From Anaerolineaceae bacterium (GTDB lineage Bacteria > Chloroflexota > Anaerolineae > Anaerolineales > Anaerolineaceae): a stretch of 64,000 nucleotides of DNA. Shown here piece after piece: positions 4,471-33,075 of the stretch; the stretch's first letter is position 1; every line of letters begins with the position of its first letter. A program made the translations under genes and the position numbers. The stretch covers positions 62,001 through 126,000 of the forward strand of contig JAENZI010000006.1 in assembly GCA_016841365.1 (NCBI GenBank). The letters are read 5' to 3'. The notes beneath the pieces are model-generated. The model made no database searches and was not told where the DNA came from. It worked only from the letters and a program-made list of their open reading frames with translations.

Positions 4471-5785
4471 CCAAGGAGCTTCCGACCCTATTCGGCAAGT
4501 GCGTATGCCGGGCGACCCAAACTGCCCGATTTGCGGCGGCATTGGCTATCTCCGGTATGATGTGCCCATTGACCACCCCGATTTTGGGAAAATCGTCCCT
4601 TGCTCGTGCCGGGCTGAAGAGATCACACAATCCGCGCGGTCAAGGCTTTTCAGGATGAGCAGTCTGGATGCCTTGAAAGAGCTCCGCTTTGAAAACTTCG
4701 AAAAGCGCGGTCGGGTCGGGCTTGGAAAGACACAAGCAGATTCAATCGAAAACGCCTACAACCAGGCACACAACTTCGCCGAAAACCGCCAGGGATGGCT
4801 GCTGCTCACCGGGCGCTACGGCTGCGGGAAGACCCACCTGGCTGCCGCAATTGCCAACCATGCCATCGAAGCAGGCGTCTCCACCCTCTTCCTGACCCTG
4901 CCAGACCTGTTGGATTGGCTGCGTTATGCTTACTCTGGCGTGGATATGAGCTTTGAAGAGCGCTTTGAAGAGATCCGCGAGATCCCGCTTTTAATTTTGG
5001 ATGACTTCGGGACGCAAAACGCAACTGCCTGGGCACAGGAAAAAATCTTCCAGATCATGAACCACCGCTACATCAACAAACTGCCAACGGTCGTCACCAG
5101 CAATATGCTCGTCAACGATTTTGAGGGGCGTGTTCGCTCAAGGCTGCAGGACCCCAACCTGGTGACCGTCGTCAATATCCAAGCGCCGGATTACCGCAAC
5201 CCGACCGATGACACCGGTCATCCCGAACTTTCAACGCTGGGGCTGCACAGCCGGCAGACCTTTGGCAACTTCAGCCTGAGGCAAAATGAGCGGATTCCCA
5301 AACAGGACTTACAAGACCTCAAATCTGCCTTTGATACAGCCCGAGGTTTTGCCGAACACCCCAAAGGCTGGCTGCTCTTTACCGGCCCCTACGGGTCGGG
5401 AAAAACGCACCTGGCAGCCGCAATCGGCAATTACCAGGCAGGCATGGGCTTCCCGCCGCTGATGGTCAGCGTGCCCGACCTGCTTGACCATCTCAGGGCG
5501 ACTTTCAGCCCCAACAGCAGCGTCTCCCTTGACCGGCGTTTTGAGGAAATCAGAACCACACGCATGTTGATCCTGGATGATCTGGGAACGCAATCCGCAA
5601 CACCCTGGGCACGAGAAAAACTCTACCAGTTGTTCAATTACCGTTACAATGCTGAATTGCCTACCGTGATCACGACCTCAAGCAAAACAGAAGAACTGGA
5701 CCCCCGACTCTACAGCCGTATGCAAGATCGAAGAATCTGCACGGTGGTTTTAATCCCGGTGCCAGCCTACCAAGGCGAAAGATAA
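4397..5785 (+). CDS. Tandem DnaC-like AAA+ helicase-loader ATPase with N-terminal zinc motif
   Basis: 462-residue cytoplasmic ATPase built from two consecutive DnaC/IstB-like AAA+ modules. An N-terminal Cys cluster (C43, C46, C69, C71: CPIC...CSC) probably binds zinc. Module 1 has Walker A GRYGCGKT (139-146), Walker B LLILDDFGTQ and SNM/R motifs near SRLQDPN. Module 2 has GPYGSGKT (330-337), LILDDLGTQ and SRMQDRRI. Both modules keep the catalytic motifs, so both could hydrolyse ATP. Usual loaders (DnaC, DnaI) have one module and about 250-310 residues. Start ATG 4397 is preferred because AAGGA lies 7 nt upstream; GTG 4391 would put the RBS too close. It follows dnaB and the DnaD-domain gene and ends at a strong terminator, so a helicase-loading role is a well-supported inference. 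Confidence 0.87.
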   Translation: MSKIDETIRKIRTATDKAGSDENNSQGASDPIRQVRMPGDPNCPICGGIGYLRYDVPIDHPDFGKIVPCSCRAEEITQSARSRLFRMSSLDALKELRFENFEKRGRVGLGKTQADSIENAYNQAHNFAENRQGWLLLTGRYGCGKTHLAAAIANHAIEAGVSTLFLTLPDLLDWLRYAYSGVDMSFEERFEEIREIPLLILDDFGTQNATAWAQEKIFQIMNHRYINKLPTVVTSNMLVNDFEGRVRSRLQDPNLVTVVNIQAPDYRNPTDDTGHPELSTLGLHSRQTFGNFSLRQNERIPKQDLQDLKSAFDTARGFAEHPKGWLLFTGPYGSGKTHLAAAIGNYQAGMGFPPLMVSVPDLLDHLRATFSPNSSVSLDRRFEEIRTTRMLILDDLGTQSATPWAREKLYQLFNYRYNAELPTVITTSSKTEELDPRLYSRMQDRRICTVVLIPVPAYQGER

Positions 5786-7929: not shown

Positions 7930-7958
7930 TTGACTAAATAGGATAAATATAGTAATAT
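7930..7958 (+). promoter_or_regulatory. Promoter of the copper operon
   Basis: TTGACT (7930-7935), 17-bp spacer, TAATAT (7953-7958). The predicted transcription start (about 7965) lies directly before the CsoR-like dyad. Confidence 0.65.
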
Positions 7959-7972
7959 TTATACAATTACAT

Positions 7973-7992
7973 CCCTCCCCCCATAGGGAGGG
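7973..7992 (+). promoter_or_regulatory. Putative CsoR operator overlapping the csoR leader
   Basis: Perfect inverted repeat CCCTCCC (7973-7979) / GGGAGGG (7986-7992) with 6-bp spacer. G/C-tract pseudopalindromes of this kind are the known operators of CsoR repressors. It lies just downstream of the promoter and 12 bp before the csoR start, so a bound repressor would block transcription. The right arm is also purine-rich (GGGAGGGGG) and could assist ribosome binding. Confidence 0.6.
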
Positions 7993-8003: not shown

Positions 8004-8282
8004 ATGATGAACCACAACCATAACGATAGTATTCAGCGGTTAAAGACAGTCGAAGGTCACATACGTGGTATTCAGCGCATGCTGGAAAACGACCAGTATT
8101 GTATCGACATCATCCGGCAAATTCAGGCCGTTCAGGCCGCGCTCAATAAAGTCAGCGCCAACATTCTGGACGGTCATCTGAACACCTGTTTAATGAATGC
8201 CGTTCAGGGTGAAGACCCTGAGGAGCGCAGCCGGGTGTTAAAGGAGATCACAGATGTCTTTGAAACCGCAAACCGAACCTAA
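8004..8282 (+). CDS. csoR: Copper-sensing transcriptional repressor CsoR
   Basis: 92-residue all-helical repressor of the CsoR/RcnR (DUF156) family. The Cu(I) ligand set C-H-C is intact: C33 (QYCID), H58 (DGHLN) and C62 (TCLM), which distinguishes copper sensors from RcnR (His-rich) and CstR (no His). Other family hallmarks are RLKTVEGHIRGIQRML and QIQAVQAALNKV. It should bind its own operator and release DNA upon Cu(I) binding. Start is ATG 8004 or the adjacent ATG 8007. It is the first gene of csoR-copZ-copA-rhodanese, so the operon is autoregulated. Confidence 0.94.
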   Translation: MMNHNHNDSIQRLKTVEGHIRGIQRMLENDQYCIDIIRQIQAVQAALNKVSANILDGHLNTCLMNAVQGEDPEERSRVLKEITDVFETANRT

Positions 8283-8301: not shown

Positions 8302-8508
8302 ATGAAATCCGTAACCTATACCGTCCCGAACATTTCCTGCCATCACTGCACCCACACAATAACCATGGAACTTTCCGATATTGAAGGCGTAGAAAAAGTG
8401 GAAGCAGATGTTCACACCAAGCAGGTCAAAGTAGAGTTTGGCGATCCGGCAACTGAGGAAATCCTCAAGACCACCCTCGCTGAAATCAACTACCCCGCTG
8501 TAGAGTAA
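8302..8508 (+). CDS. copZ: CopZ-like copper chaperone (HMA domain)
   Basis: 68-residue ferredoxin-like heavy-metal-associated domain. The Cu(I)-binding CxxC is C13-H-H-C16 (ISCHHCTHT). Start ATG 8302 has AGGAG at 8291-8295; a longer frame starting at 8254 would overlap csoR and lacks an RBS. It delivers Cu(I) to CopA and to the CsoR repressor. It is placed 19 bp after csoR and 6 bp before copA, clearly co-transcribed. Confidence 0.93.
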   Translation: MKSVTYTVPNISCHHCTHTITMELSDIEGVEKVEADVHTKQVKVEFGDPATEEILKTTLAEINYPAVE

Positions 8509-8514
8509 GGCACT

Positions 8515-10935
8515 ATGAGCGAACAAAAACATCTCACCCTCCCCATTTTAGGGATGACCTGCGCAAACTGCGTAGCAACGGTTGAGCGCAACCTCAAAAA
8601 AGTCGAGGGCGTCGAAACAGCCAACGTCAACCTGTCTTCCGAACGGGCAGCCGTCAGTTATGACCCGAAAAAGGCCAATCTGAACGACCTCATCGGCCGG
8701 GTGCAACGTGCCGGGTATGAAGTGGCCATGGGCGAAGCCACACTGGGCATCAAAAACCTGACCGATTCTTCAGACAGCCAGCGGCTTGAAAAAGTCATCA
8801 ACGGCATTGAAGGCGTGATTGAGGCATCGGTCAACCTGGCCGCAGAAAAGGCACTCGTAAAATATGTGCCGACGGTGGTCAGCCAAAATGACCTGCGCAG
8901 GCAGATCCGCTCGGCAGGGTTTGAAACCCTTGAGCCGGATGTCGAGATCGAAGACGCTGAAGCAAAAGCCCGGCAGAAGGAAATCGCCGAACAGAAGCGT
9001 TTGCTGATCATCGGCCTGATCTTCACACTGCCTTTGTTCATCGTTTCAATGGGCAGAGATATGGGTTTGCTTCCCGCCCACCTGGCGCATGCACCCTGGA
9101 TGAATTACCTGTTTTGGGCTTTAGCCACGCCAGTTCAGTTTTATGTGGGTTGGCAATACTATGTCAATGGCTATAAGAGCATCCACAACGGTTCTGCCAA
9201 TATGGATGTATTGGTCGCACTCGGTTCATCGGCAGCCTATTTCTATTCCATCCCGATAGCCCTGGGGATGATTCCCGGACATGTTTATTTTGAAACTGGC
9301 GCGGTGATCATCACCCTGGTAAAACTGGGGAAATTCTTCGAAGCCAAAGCCAAAGGCGGTGCGAGTGATGCCATCCGAAAATTGATGGATCTGCGCCCCC
9401 GCAAGGCATATATCATCCGGGATGGCATCGAAATTGAAGTCTTTGTTGACCAGGTTGAACCTGGTGACATCGTGCTAGTGCACCCGGGTGAGAAGATCCC
9501 CGTAGACGGCATGGTGGTGGATGGTCGATCCAGCGTAGATGAATCAATGTTGACAGGTGAATCCTTGCCTGTTGAAAAATCACCCGGGCAGGAAGTCATC
9601 GGCGGCACGATCAATAAACTGGGTTTATTGAAATTTGAAGCCACCAAAGTCGGCAAGGAAACCGCCCTGGCGCAGATCATCAAACTCGTGGAACAAGCCC
9701 AGGCCAGCAAAGCGCCAATCCAAAACCTGGCAGACAAAATCTCAGCCGTCTTTGTACCGGTGGTGATCGGTATCGCCGCGTTGACGTTTATTGCCTGGTA
9801 TTTCTTCGTGCCCCTTGCCCCCGATGCCAATGTCAGCCTGTTCACACGGGCGCTGATCAATACTGTTTCTGTGTTGGTGATCGCCTGTCCCTGTGCCATG
9901 GGCCTGGCAACCCCCACAGCCGTGATGGTCGGCACAGGGAAAGGTGCGGAACTGGGCATCCTGATCAAGAAAAGCGAAAGCCTGGAGCGTGCTGGGGATA
10001 TTACAACAGTCGTATTGGATAAAACCGGCACGATCACTAAAGGTCAGCCAGCCGTGACCCGCATCCATACCTATAACCCAGCCATTAACGAAAATGAAAC
10101 CCTGCGCCTGGCCGCCTCCGTCGAGAAAGGGAGCGAGCATCCTCTCGGCGAAGCCATCACTGCAGAAGCTAATGCCCGTTCCTTAACCGTGAGTGAGCCC
10201 ATGGGCTTTACCGCAATCGCTGGCCACGGGGTGCGTGCTGAAGTAGATGGGAAGATGATCCTCGTTGGCAACCGGCGCCTTTTAACAGACCAGGGTATTG
10301 ACCTGAACAGGACACAATCCGATCTGCAACACCTCGAAGAGGCTGGTCAAACAGCCGTGCTGGTCGCAATCGACGAACAGCTTGCGGGTGTGATCGGCAT
10401 CGCCGATACCATCAAAGATCGCTCAAAACAAGCAATTGATTCACTGCATAAAATGGGCTTGAAGGTCACTATGGTAACCGGTGACAACCAGCGCACCGCG
10501 CAAGCGATCGCCGCATTGGTGGGCGTGGATATAGTTTTGGCAGAGGTTTTACCTGGTGACAAAGCCTCCGAGATTAAAAAACTGCAAGAACAAGGTGATG
10601 TGGTTGCCATGGTGGGCGATGGAATCAATGACGCACCCGCCCTGGCTCAAGCCGACATTGGGATTGCCATTGGCACCGGCACCGACGTGGCCATGGCTTC
10701 CGCGCCGGTTGTCCTGATCAGCGGTGACCTGCGGGGCGTCCCAAAAGCAATTGCACTTTCACGGCGCACCTTAAAAACGATCAAACAGAACCTGTTTTGG
10801 GCGTTCTTTTATAACGTCATCCTCATCCCGGCAGCCGCCTTAGGCTTGCTTAATCCCATGCTGGCGGCTGGCGCCATGTCCTTCAGCAGTATTTTCGTGG
10901 TCACAAACAGCCTCAGGCTGCGACGTTTCAAATAA
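8515..10935 (+). CDS. copA: Copper-translocating P-type ATPase CopA
   Basis: 806-residue P1B-type ATPase exporting Cu(I) across the cytoplasmic membrane. Two N-terminal HMA modules are visible: the first has GMTCANC (C16, C19), while the second (about 77-150) has lost the CxxC and so cannot bind copper in the usual way. Then come the membrane helices, the transport motif CPC (458-460), actuator TGES, phosphorylation site DKTGT (D502), the SEHPLGEAI motif and the hinge [10 protein letters not shown]. Length and order are normal for P1B-1 ATPases. It is third in the copper operon and is followed 36 bp later by the rhodanese gene. Confidence 0.96.
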
Positions 10936-10971: not shown

Positions 10972-11430
10972 ATGCGTAAAAAGAAAAATAACATCCTGAT
11001 CCCCGTGATCTTATTTGTCGGGGTATTGGTGCTCAGTGTTGGCGGGTTGATCCTTGCCAACCGCCTACGGCAAGCTGAAATCGCCAATCCTGGTGAATAC
11101 AGCTCTCCAGACGATATCCCCCGTGTGACTGTCAGTGAAGCCTATCAAGCGCTGGTTGATGGTGACGCCGTGCTGGTCGATACACGCAGCGCAAGCGAAT
11201 ACCAAACCTCCCACATTGCAGGGGCGATCAACATCCCGATCGACCAGGTGGAATCTCGGGTAGGAGAGCTTGATCCCGATACTTGGTATATCACCTACTG
11301 CACCTGACCGGCTGAAAATACCAGCGCCGGTGCGGCGCTGATCATGTATCTTAACGGTATCCGTAAGGTAAATCCAATTCTGGGCGGCTTTGAAGCCTGG
11401 GTTGAAAGCGGATACCCGGTAGAACCGTAA
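10972..11430 (+). CDS. Membrane-anchored rhodanese-like protein, probable selenoprotein (Sec112 at UGA)
   Basis: Read conventionally the frame stops at TGA 11305-11307 after 111 codons, in the middle of the rhodanese fold. The same frame continues without interruption to TAA 11428, giving 152 residues and a complete domain. Residues 8-29 are a membrane anchor; 50-150 are the rhodanese fold (VLVDTRSASEYQTSHIAGA, INIP, and after the UGA PAENTSAGAALIMYLNG and ILGGFEAWVESGYP). The active-site loop reads YCT-UGA-PAENTSA; many related rhodaneses, as recalled, have YCxCPxExTSA, so the UGA sits exactly at a Cys position. A bacterial SECIS-like hairpin follows immediately (11322-11340), and a tRNA(Sec) gene occurs at 32982-33075. 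Likely a sulfur-transfer or thiol-redox protein facing outside the cytoplasm, co-transcribed with copA. Alternative: a nonsense-mutated gene, less likely given the intact downstream frame and hairpin. Confidence 0.85.
11308..11340 (+). promoter_or_regulatory. Predicted bacterial SECIS element
   Basis: Directly after UGA 11305-11307, the mRNA can form a perfect 7-bp stem CAGCGCC (11322-11328) / GGCGCTG (11334-11340) with loop GGUGC. The loop begins 22 nt after the UGA and starts with G, which agrees with the known bacterial SECIS rules (short G-containing apical loop, roughly 16-37 nt from UGA). An alternative CCGGC/GCCGG pairing (11308-11330) competes with it. Confidence 0.75.
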
Positions 11431-11450
11431 TTACCAAAACAAGCAAAAAG

Positions 11451-11482
11451 GCCTGCCCAAAAGAATGGGCAGGCTCTTTATT
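11451..11482 (+). terminator. Rho-independent terminator of the copper operon
   Basis: GCCTGCCC (11451-11458) / GGGCAGGC (11467-11474) with 8-nt loop and TCTTTATT tail. It lies 20 bp after the TAA that ends the read-through rhodanese frame, consistent with that TAA being the real gene end. Confidence 0.85.
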
Positions 11483-11529: not shown

Positions 11530-12435
11530 TTAGGGTCTGTTGCTTTTACCCTTATTATCTTTGTTGGTCTTTTCTTTTTCGGCATTCTTTTCTTTGTTCT
11601 GGTTGACAAAACCCTCAGGCTCATCGCCTTCTTCCTTGTCTGCATCCTTACCGATCAAGCCCAGTTCCTGCCAAATTTCTCCCCAGCCATTTTCATCATC
11701 ATCGGAGGAGCGCATTTCAAGCAGTTCTACCCAGGTCATCTCGACATCTTCCATTTCTGCTGTCTTTAAGGCATGTTCAATTTCGCCGATGCCAAAATGC
11801 TGTTCGCAGAAATAGGGCAGCAGGGTTTCATATTCAACAACATATTCCATCGCCAAACCTTCTAATGCGGGATGAATCAATGCGCCAGAACAAACCGCGC
11901 TGTCTTCCATGTTGTCATCGTCCATATCATCATCTTCTTCTTCGTCAGCGTCTTCCAGCTCGACTTCAATGGCGATGTTCAGCTCATCCTCAACATAGTA
12001 TTTGACTTTTACCCAGTCACCAACTGCGATGTCTTCTTCGATTTCAGTGTCCATCGTGAGCTCGTAGCGCACACCATCAACGATCAGGTAGTCCGGGGCA
12101 AGTTCTTCCACGGTGCCATAAACTTCCATTTCGTCATACTCGGGGTCTTCCAGCTCAACTTCGATGGCGATGTTCAGCTCATCCTCAACATAGTATTTGA
12201 CTTTTACCCAATCGCCAACTTCGATGTCCTCTTCGATTTCAGTGTCCATCGTGAGTTCGTAACGCACACCATCAACGATCAGGTAGTCCACGGCGAGTTC
12301 TTCAATGGCACCATATGCCTCCATTTCATCACTCTCGACATCCATAGCAATGATGTCTTGAGCATACACAACGCCAACCAGCGAAAGTGCAAGCGTCAAT
12401 ACAATTGTGATAGCCAGCAATTTCTTGTTCTTCAT
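11530..12435 (-). CDS. Secreted acidic protein with two DUF5666-like repeats
   Basis: 301-residue secreted protein. Residues 1-26 are a classic signal peptide ending VVYAQ. Two nearly identical modules of about 59 residues follow (about 38-96 and 100-158), each with VDYLIVDGVRYELTMDTEIE or PDYLIVDG... then VGDWVKVKYYVEDELNIAIE; they resemble the small beta-barrel DUF5666 domain. Next come an Asp/Glu-rich linker, a helical segment with two Cys (CSGALIHP..., YFCEQHFG) and a Lys/Asn-rich tail. Start ATG 12435 has GGAGG upstream. Two of the modules are almost identical also at DNA level, indicating recent duplication. Single gene; function unknown, possibly envelope or cation binding. Confidence 0.85.
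   Translation of the reverse strand: MKNKKLLAITIVLTLALSLVGVVYAQDIIAMDVESDEMEAYGAIEELAVDYLIVDGVRYELTMDTEIEEDIEVGDWVKVKYYVEDELNIAIEVELEDPEYDEMEVYGTVEELAPDYLIVDGVRYELTMDTEIEEDIAVGDWVKVKYYVEDELNIAIEVELEDADEEEDDDMDDDNMEDSAVCSGALIHPALEGLAMEYVVEYETLLPYFCEQHFGIGEIEHALKTAEMEDVEMTWVELLEMRSSDDDENGWGEIWQELGLIGKDADKEEGDEPEGFVNQNKEKNAEKEKTNKDNKGKSNRP
11955..12300. repeat. Tandem intragenic duplication (two copies, about 170-190 bp)
   Basis: The segment around 11960-12115 is repeated with few changes at about 12150-12295. It encodes the two DUF5666-like modules of the secreted protein. Shared DNA includes the stretch coding for LTMDTEIEEDI and VKVKYYVEDELNIA. Confidence 0.8.
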
Positions 12436-32981: not shown

Positions 32982-33075
32982 CGGGAATGGATGGGAGTCG
33001 AACCCACCACGGCTCGCAACGCGACCCGACACCGGTGTTGAAGACCGGGAGGCCCACCAGGACCTAACCATTCCC
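32982..33075 (-). tRNA. selC: Selenocysteine tRNA (anticodon UCA)
   Basis: 94-nt cloverleaf. Acceptor stem is 8 bp (GGGAATGG / CCATTCCC), T-stem 5 bp with loop TTCGACT, together the 8+5 helix unique to bacterial tRNA(Sec). D-stem is 6 bp (AGGTCC/GGGCCT) with a 4-nt TGGT loop. Anticodon stem CCGGT/ACCGG carries loop CTTCAAC with anticodon TCA. A long variable arm follows. Discriminator is G; no encoded CCA. These traits identify the Sec tRNA that reads UGA. It is divergent from the GH13 gene. The selA/selB/selD genes are not in this window, but this gene implies they exist elsewhere. Confidence 0.95.

Follow-up and report, generated by a model that had tools for sequence, protein, structure and literature searches.

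Operons in which csoR, copZ and copA stand under the control of CsoR are a known type, and in active thiosulfate sulfurtransferases the catalytic cysteine occupies the usual place in the active-site loop. We analysed a window of 64,000 nucleotides from the genome of an Anaerolineaceae bacterium, in which an earlier note had pointed to a membrane-anchored rhodanese gene at the end of a copper operon, interrupted by a single TGA that it proposed to be read as selenocysteine (Sec). Rhodanese-like selenoproteins are known in some bacteria, as that note had stated: in the accessible part of a 2026 review (PMC13188914), their form 3, with a CxU motif and one Sec, is the family NF041203 (rhodanese_LYCAU), for which the review refers to Zhang and Gladyshev 2005, and its table gives two Sec, in a UxxxxU arrangement, for the family NF045694. 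CxU rhodanese selenoproteins are therefore already known, and it is the placement in a copper operon that is new as far as our literature search reaches. In the titles and abstract beginnings searched, whose coverage is limited so that such a report may be in print elsewhere, we found no link between a Sec rhodanese and copper; a rhodanese within a CsoR/copA copper-efflux operon was not found in the literature searched either, and the accessible portions of PMC9312934, PMC1088965, PMC2398784 and PMC5424206 held no tie between a Sec rhodanese and copper.

The coordinates of the features are collected in Table 1. Read through its only TGA down to the TAA, the rhodanese frame encodes 152 residues, the TGA falling at residue 112 in the motif YCTUPAENTSA, which contains a CxU (YCTU). 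The Pfam Rhodanese domain (PF00581, E = 6.2e-15, 55.9 bits for a gathering threshold of 22.2) spans residues 54-145 and thus crosses the TGA, bearing out the description of a rhodanese that continues up to the TAA. The AF2 model of the 152-residue protein had a mean pLDDT of 91.2 and its best matches among solved structures were rhodaneses. In this model C110 lies just past the strand 105-109 and U112 in the adjoining loop that precedes helix 116-127, suggesting that the two residues could reach each other. A lysine-rich N-terminus is followed by a single helix (residues 9-38) compatible with the membrane anchor proposed earlier. According to a simple rule, a hydrophobic helix was present in 71/71 loci of the family with an in-frame stop (70 with TGA and one ordinary rhodanese bearing a TAG) and in 24 of 40 loci outside the family, 8 of these 24 being long frames. 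Across 66 sequences D70 and R72 were invariant and G138-G139 nearly so. Pairwise BLASTP against 8 paralogues aligned the usual catalytic cysteine with C110 in five cases and with U112 in three, and GlpE aligned with C110, leaving two residues unmatched as a gap in the active site. A search of plasmids at the protein level gave 180 records, all below 60% identity, none of which covered 80% of the query. Gene calling with the standard code ends this rhodanese at residue 111, and the active site is lost.

Table 1. Features of the copper operon, the rhodanese gene and the tRNA-Sec gene, in positions of the window.
Feature	Position	Strand	Basis
Promoter-like hexamers 5' of csoR	7930..7958	+	Scan, 4 sites for 3.5 expected by chance; alike in relatives by eye
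Inverted repeat CCCTCCC-N6-GGGAGGG, probable CsoR operator	7973..7992	.	Repeat search; relatives by eye
CsoR-type repressor, first gene of the operon	8004..8282	+	Best NCBIfam match RicR copper repressor, 75.9 bits, below cut-off of 175
CopZ-type copper chaperone	8302..8508	+	Best matches CopP, TIGR00003 and CopZ, each below cut-off
CopA copper-exporting P1B ATPase	8515..10935	+	TIGR01511, 608.7 bits, cut-off 397
Putative membrane-anchored CxU rhodanese, Sec112, TAA stop	10972..11430	+	Frame, Pfam, AF2, 70 other loci
UGA predicted to be read as selenocysteine 112	11305..11307	+	Invariant column; Cys in 11/11 relatives found with the YCTCP pattern
Candidate bacterial SECIS-type hairpin, stem CAGCGCC/GGCGCTG	11322..11340	+	Fold, covariation, synonymous constraint
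Terminator-like hairpin 3' of the rhodanese stop	11450..11475	+	Scan, 6 sites for 4.7 expected in shuffles
tRNA-Sec gene, anticodon TCA	32983..33075	-	Rfam RF01852, 69.5 bits, gathering 47; ARAGORN

The read-through protein was searched against 147 genomes from the window's family, the listed matches reaching E ~4e-10. At least 136 of these genomes gave matches; many of the matched proteins were ordinary rhodaneses, and in many the frame contained a TGA. Eighty family loci were retrieved. The matched frame carried a TGA in 70, of which 13 belong to the window's genus and 57 to other genera; the ten loci without it were L119 and L120, where the contig ends at the site, and eight rhodaneses with a CRSGNRS loop, one of which (L126) carries an in-frame TAG. 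The TGA occupied one and the same alignment column in 71/71 sequences (the window and the 70 loci, 68 of them distinct). Two of the 15 other genomes of the genus lacked a full TGA gene among the matches listed, G019 showing a fragment at a contig end and G020 an ordinary match. Expressed as uncorrected proportions, pN/pS in 13 genus sequences was 0.32 before the TGA (residues 46-111), 0.21 over residues 113-123 and 0.28 past the hairpin (residues 124-152). Judging from these values, purifying selection acts on the protein equally before and past the TGA, which speaks against the production of a truncated protein only, named by the earlier note as a refutation. The synonymous difference averaged 0.35 over codons 113-123, and the 134 remaining codons of the test averaged 0.60 (p = 2.9e-5).

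A stable hairpin had been reported to begin 15 nt after the UGA. Its position was confirmed, the first paired base being the 15th nucleotide, and its MFE was -15.2 kcal/mol, but the stability did not stand out from shuffled sequences (z = -1.49; 21 of 200 shuffles folded at least equally well). With such a z score, folding of the single sequence was rejected as a proof of a SECIS element, and the Sec claim is carried by the comparative evidence. Over the 68 distinct rows, pairing in the 7-pair stem reached 84.9% of cells, compared to 77.9% in shuffles (0/500 as high) and 24-50% when the stem was slid. Changes on both sides of a pair were seen in 32 stem cells for 12.0 in shuffles (0/500 as high). 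The clearest covariation, found in 11 rows, replaces C-G by U-A, the two bases being the wobble bases of two alanine codons. Two stem pairs were invariant and the other five showed both-side changes, a number equalled by 55 of 500 shuffles and hence not beyond chance, as was the number of pair types, equalled by 312 of 500. The stem is weak at its two outer pairs, which are unpaired in 34 and 33 of the 68 rows, and RNAalifold retained the inner five.

A scan of named genomes with the pattern YCTCP[AN]E[ENQ] matched 16 stretches, 11 of which were confirmed as relatives (L130-L140), from Acidobacteria and Betaproteobacteria according to the titles of the records. Cysteine aligned with residue 112 in 11/11, the YCTCP[AN]E loop matching residues 109-115 without gap, a count that is partly by construction because the scan pattern is itself the Cys motif; outside the loop, the alignment of the rhodanese domain owes nothing to the pattern. 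This agrees with the cysteine that the earlier note had placed here, in a YCxCPxExTSA loop, and whose lack in homologues it would have counted against Sec. Among the 80 loci of the window's own family we saw no Cys version. The selB and selD genes, the absence of which would likewise have spoken against Sec, were both found in the genome (selB, 371.9 bits for a cut-off of 242; selD, 401.9 for 125), together with selA (531.4 for 268) and the tRNA-Sec gene of Table 1; elsewhere in the genome the tRNA-Sec model matched once more, less strongly, at 48.7 bits and just above threshold. Two selD genes of this genome were above the cut-off, and one (G000:C1:56983-57915, L018) has an in-frame TGA of its own, in the context SCAGUASKL. 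In the family, a hand count gave a selA match (E up to 1e-60) in 56 of the 62 genomes with a TGA gene and in 54 of the 85 others. The six TGA-gene genomes without such a match are G138, G125, G060, G080, G082 and G086. In the first two the gene also has an in-frame TAG (L091 and L092), as expected from decay following loss of the Sec trait, and these copies have likely decayed in this way. The other four have completeness values of 93, 88, 88 and 56%, respectively, and the absence of selA may reflect gaps in the drafts. Taking together the TGA column, the covariation of the hairpin, the synonymous constraint, the selection past the TGA, the Cys relatives and the Sec machinery, we regard it as almost certain that the gene encodes a selenoprotein, the full 152-residue rhodanese being made via a UGA read as Sec; the proposed Sec insertion is thus upheld on comparative grounds. 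SelB would carry Sec-tRNA to this UGA, aided by the hairpin.

The rhodanese gene starts 36 bases past the copA stop, with csoR, copZ and copA upstream on the same strand. The link to a copper operon proved to be real and is kept in the genus: the gene that directly precedes the rhodanese is copA (78-84% identical) in 13/13 other genus loci, and csoR and copZ are present in all 12 whose contig reaches so far, the gene order being kept at 57-67% protein identity. By eye, the 12/12 relatives inspected (without L054) show, like the window, a promoter-like stretch 5' of csoR and after it a C-rich run followed by a G-rich one. Inverted repeats of this kind are CsoR operators, and we take that of the window for a probable one. 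A terminator had been announced after the TAA, and a terminator-like hairpin was found there; by eye, one also follows the rhodanese in 9 of 12 relatives, none being evident in two and the contig ending in one. Very probably the rhodanese gene closes a csoR-copZ-copA-rhodanese operon controlled by CsoR and, from this place, is predicted to be expressed when copper is in excess. Convergent with the operon, positions 11530-12435 (-) encode a protein of 301 residues that has a signal-like N-terminus and contains internal repeats, and that had no NCBIfam match at 1e-5; similar proteins were found downstream in 6/13 genus loci, two more loci having no room for it.

Outside the genus, csoR, copZ or an adjoining copA was seen in 0/57 family loci, some of whose contigs are short upstream (only 0.5-1.2 kb in, e.g., L085, L086, L088 and L107). 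A copper link of the whole family was therefore rejected, these 57 loci matching neither csoR nor copZ, and copper does not appear to be its general theme. L090, L095, L096, L097 and L114 had only weak or distant matches to P-type ATPases, the one of L096 being the next gene, on the opposite strand. The neighbours in other genera, named from sequence reading, were varied and included xanthine-dehydrogenase-like, GlcD/Fe-S, MFS, radical SAM and glycine-cleavage genes. Among the matches listed, a P1B ATPase lay within 10 kb in 6 of the 57 non-genus family loci for 1.66 expected (p = 0.006), and in 6 of 40 loci (32 genomes) outside the family for 0.9 expected (p = 0.00025); counts and near pairs were taken by hand, so that the p-values are guides only, and relatedness makes these figures optimistic, as the matches of L170-L172 are to one identical protein sequence, close kinship links L088, L090, L095 and L097, and L091 and L092 bear a TAG. 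The six loci outside the family are L170, L171, L172, L176, L181 and L182. In L181 the next gene upstream, on the same strand, is the ATPase, and in L182 the Sec-rhodanese has an ArsR-like gene before it and the ATPase after it. The ATPases of L176 and L181 carry SPC and HEGST motifs, presumably those of the P1B-4 class.

Two further types of Sec-rhodanese were observed. In L154, L157, L158, L164, L166, L174, L175, L179 and L123 the domain is C-terminal on frames of ~530-830 residues, and four of them, read from end to end (L154, L164, L166 and L174), resemble cation/proton antiporters, as named from sequence reading. In the double-UGA (UxU) rhodaneses, the cysteine two residues ahead of the Sec site is also encoded as TGA. 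Such loci, read as protein, are L167 (5001-5324), L168 (3412-3744, -), L180 (5001-5297), L184 (5001-5318, -) and L190 (5001-5327), and in the window's own genus the 4880-5335 region (-) of L059 (L030/L059); L195 and L196 are included by pattern only. The strict UxU pattern was met in 7 of 400 phylum genomes and the reversed control pattern in none among the rows listed; the 284 best-quality genomes gave no case, so that draft errors must be excluded. The term 'UxU' is absent from the accessible text of PMC13188914. Forms of the wider clade in which both residues are encoded by UGA could reveal the contribution of an additional selenium.

How the protein might act is suggested by its architecture. 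The lysine-rich N-terminus and the single helix would place the rhodanese domain outside the membrane, on the side where CopA delivers Cu(I), and Cys110-Thr-Sec112 would form a thiol/selenol couple in the cradle of the rhodanese active site, where Sec may be the more reactive nucleophile that the earlier note proposed. In the mechanism that we prefer, sulfane sulfur would be taken from a persulfide or from thiosulfate and released as sulfide via a Cys-Sec bridge, trapping the exported copper as sulfide. We infer this last step tentatively, direct binding of Cu(I) by the pair being a close rival. For the whole picture of a Sec rhodanese in a copper operon with an outward domain, which does not require the last chemical step, we estimate a probability of roughly 0.55.

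Two other readings accept the selenoprotein, and we consider both of them unlikely. The CxU could be a Cu(I) site, i.e. a tethered acceptor or buffer of copper coming from CopA, with the rhodanese fold as a mere scaffold. The operon with CopA kept in the genus, the same two-residue spacing kept as CxC in the Cys relatives (which were found with that motif) and the further selenoproteins of metal handling listed in the accessible part of PMC13188914 fit such a site, but the invariant D70 and R72 and near-invariant G138-G139 are enzyme-like and the 57 family loci of other genera are outside any copper operon. The diversity of neighbours in those genera would rather suit a general Sec enzyme of redox or sulfur chemistry that became the last gene of one genus's copper operon and is merely co-expressed with it. 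This is equally doubtful, as the gene order is kept in all 13 genus loci at 57-67% protein identity and P1B ATPases recur near the loci outside the family, among matches listed and with loci that are related. That the TGA is a true stop, the gene being a pseudogene or the product of a sequencing error with a 111-residue product only, is highly improbable: decay does occur, as in the TAG-bearing, selA-less L091 and L092, but 71 sequences share the TGA, with an open and selected frame beyond it, a covarying hairpin and a complete Sec machinery. Reassignment of TGA to Trp, Gly or Cys, genome-wide or through a suppressor tRNA, has as slight a chance; a Cys-inserting tRNA would be compatible with conservation alone and with the cysteine of the relatives, but TGA terminates 13 of the 26 listed ORFs of at least 300 aa in the window, the sole tRNA found there by ARAGORN is the tRNA-Sec (TCA), and SelB is present in the genome.

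A wider reading, which we hold to be possible, goes beyond the copper operon: the anchored Sec-rhodaneses of the clade would be recurrent partners of P1B metal-exporting ATPases, CopA here and other types elsewhere, their Cys-Sec pair detoxifying the exported soft metal outside the membrane, by release of sulfide or by selenolate binding. If true, this would be a selenium-dependent step of metal efflux, undescribed in the literature searched. Selenium use and copper tolerance would meet, at a concrete place open to test, in a Sec protein that is a fixed part of a CsoR-type copper operon.

Compared to the described families, the window protein is closest to NF041203, its best NCBIfam match, with which it has in common the rhodanese domain and the CxU motif. 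All 66 family members scanned matched this model at E up to 0.001, but the window protein scored 70.5 bits and missed the curated cut-off of 115, which was reached in none of 251 sampled phylum genomes and 14 control genomes. Filing it under NF041203 was rejected on this score, which makes it a divergent relative, and it differs from that family by its helix anchor and its copper operon. TsoB, the rhodanese/DsbD fusion-like selenoprotein (NF045694), also combines Sec with a rhodanese-type domain, but its model has 572 positions and the window protein reached 28.6 of 805 bits. The Cys relatives L130-L140 have a YCTCP[AN]E loop like that of the window with Cys in place of Sec, and of the three that were read over their whole length, L131 and L132 have, before the rhodanese domain, a multi-spanning membrane part that in our view resembles DedA. 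The single-domain sulfurtransferases GlpE and PspE are similar in fold and domain length but without Sec. Finally, the gene set and order of the known csoR-copZ-copA operons are those of the window, which adds a Sec-rhodanese as the last gene.
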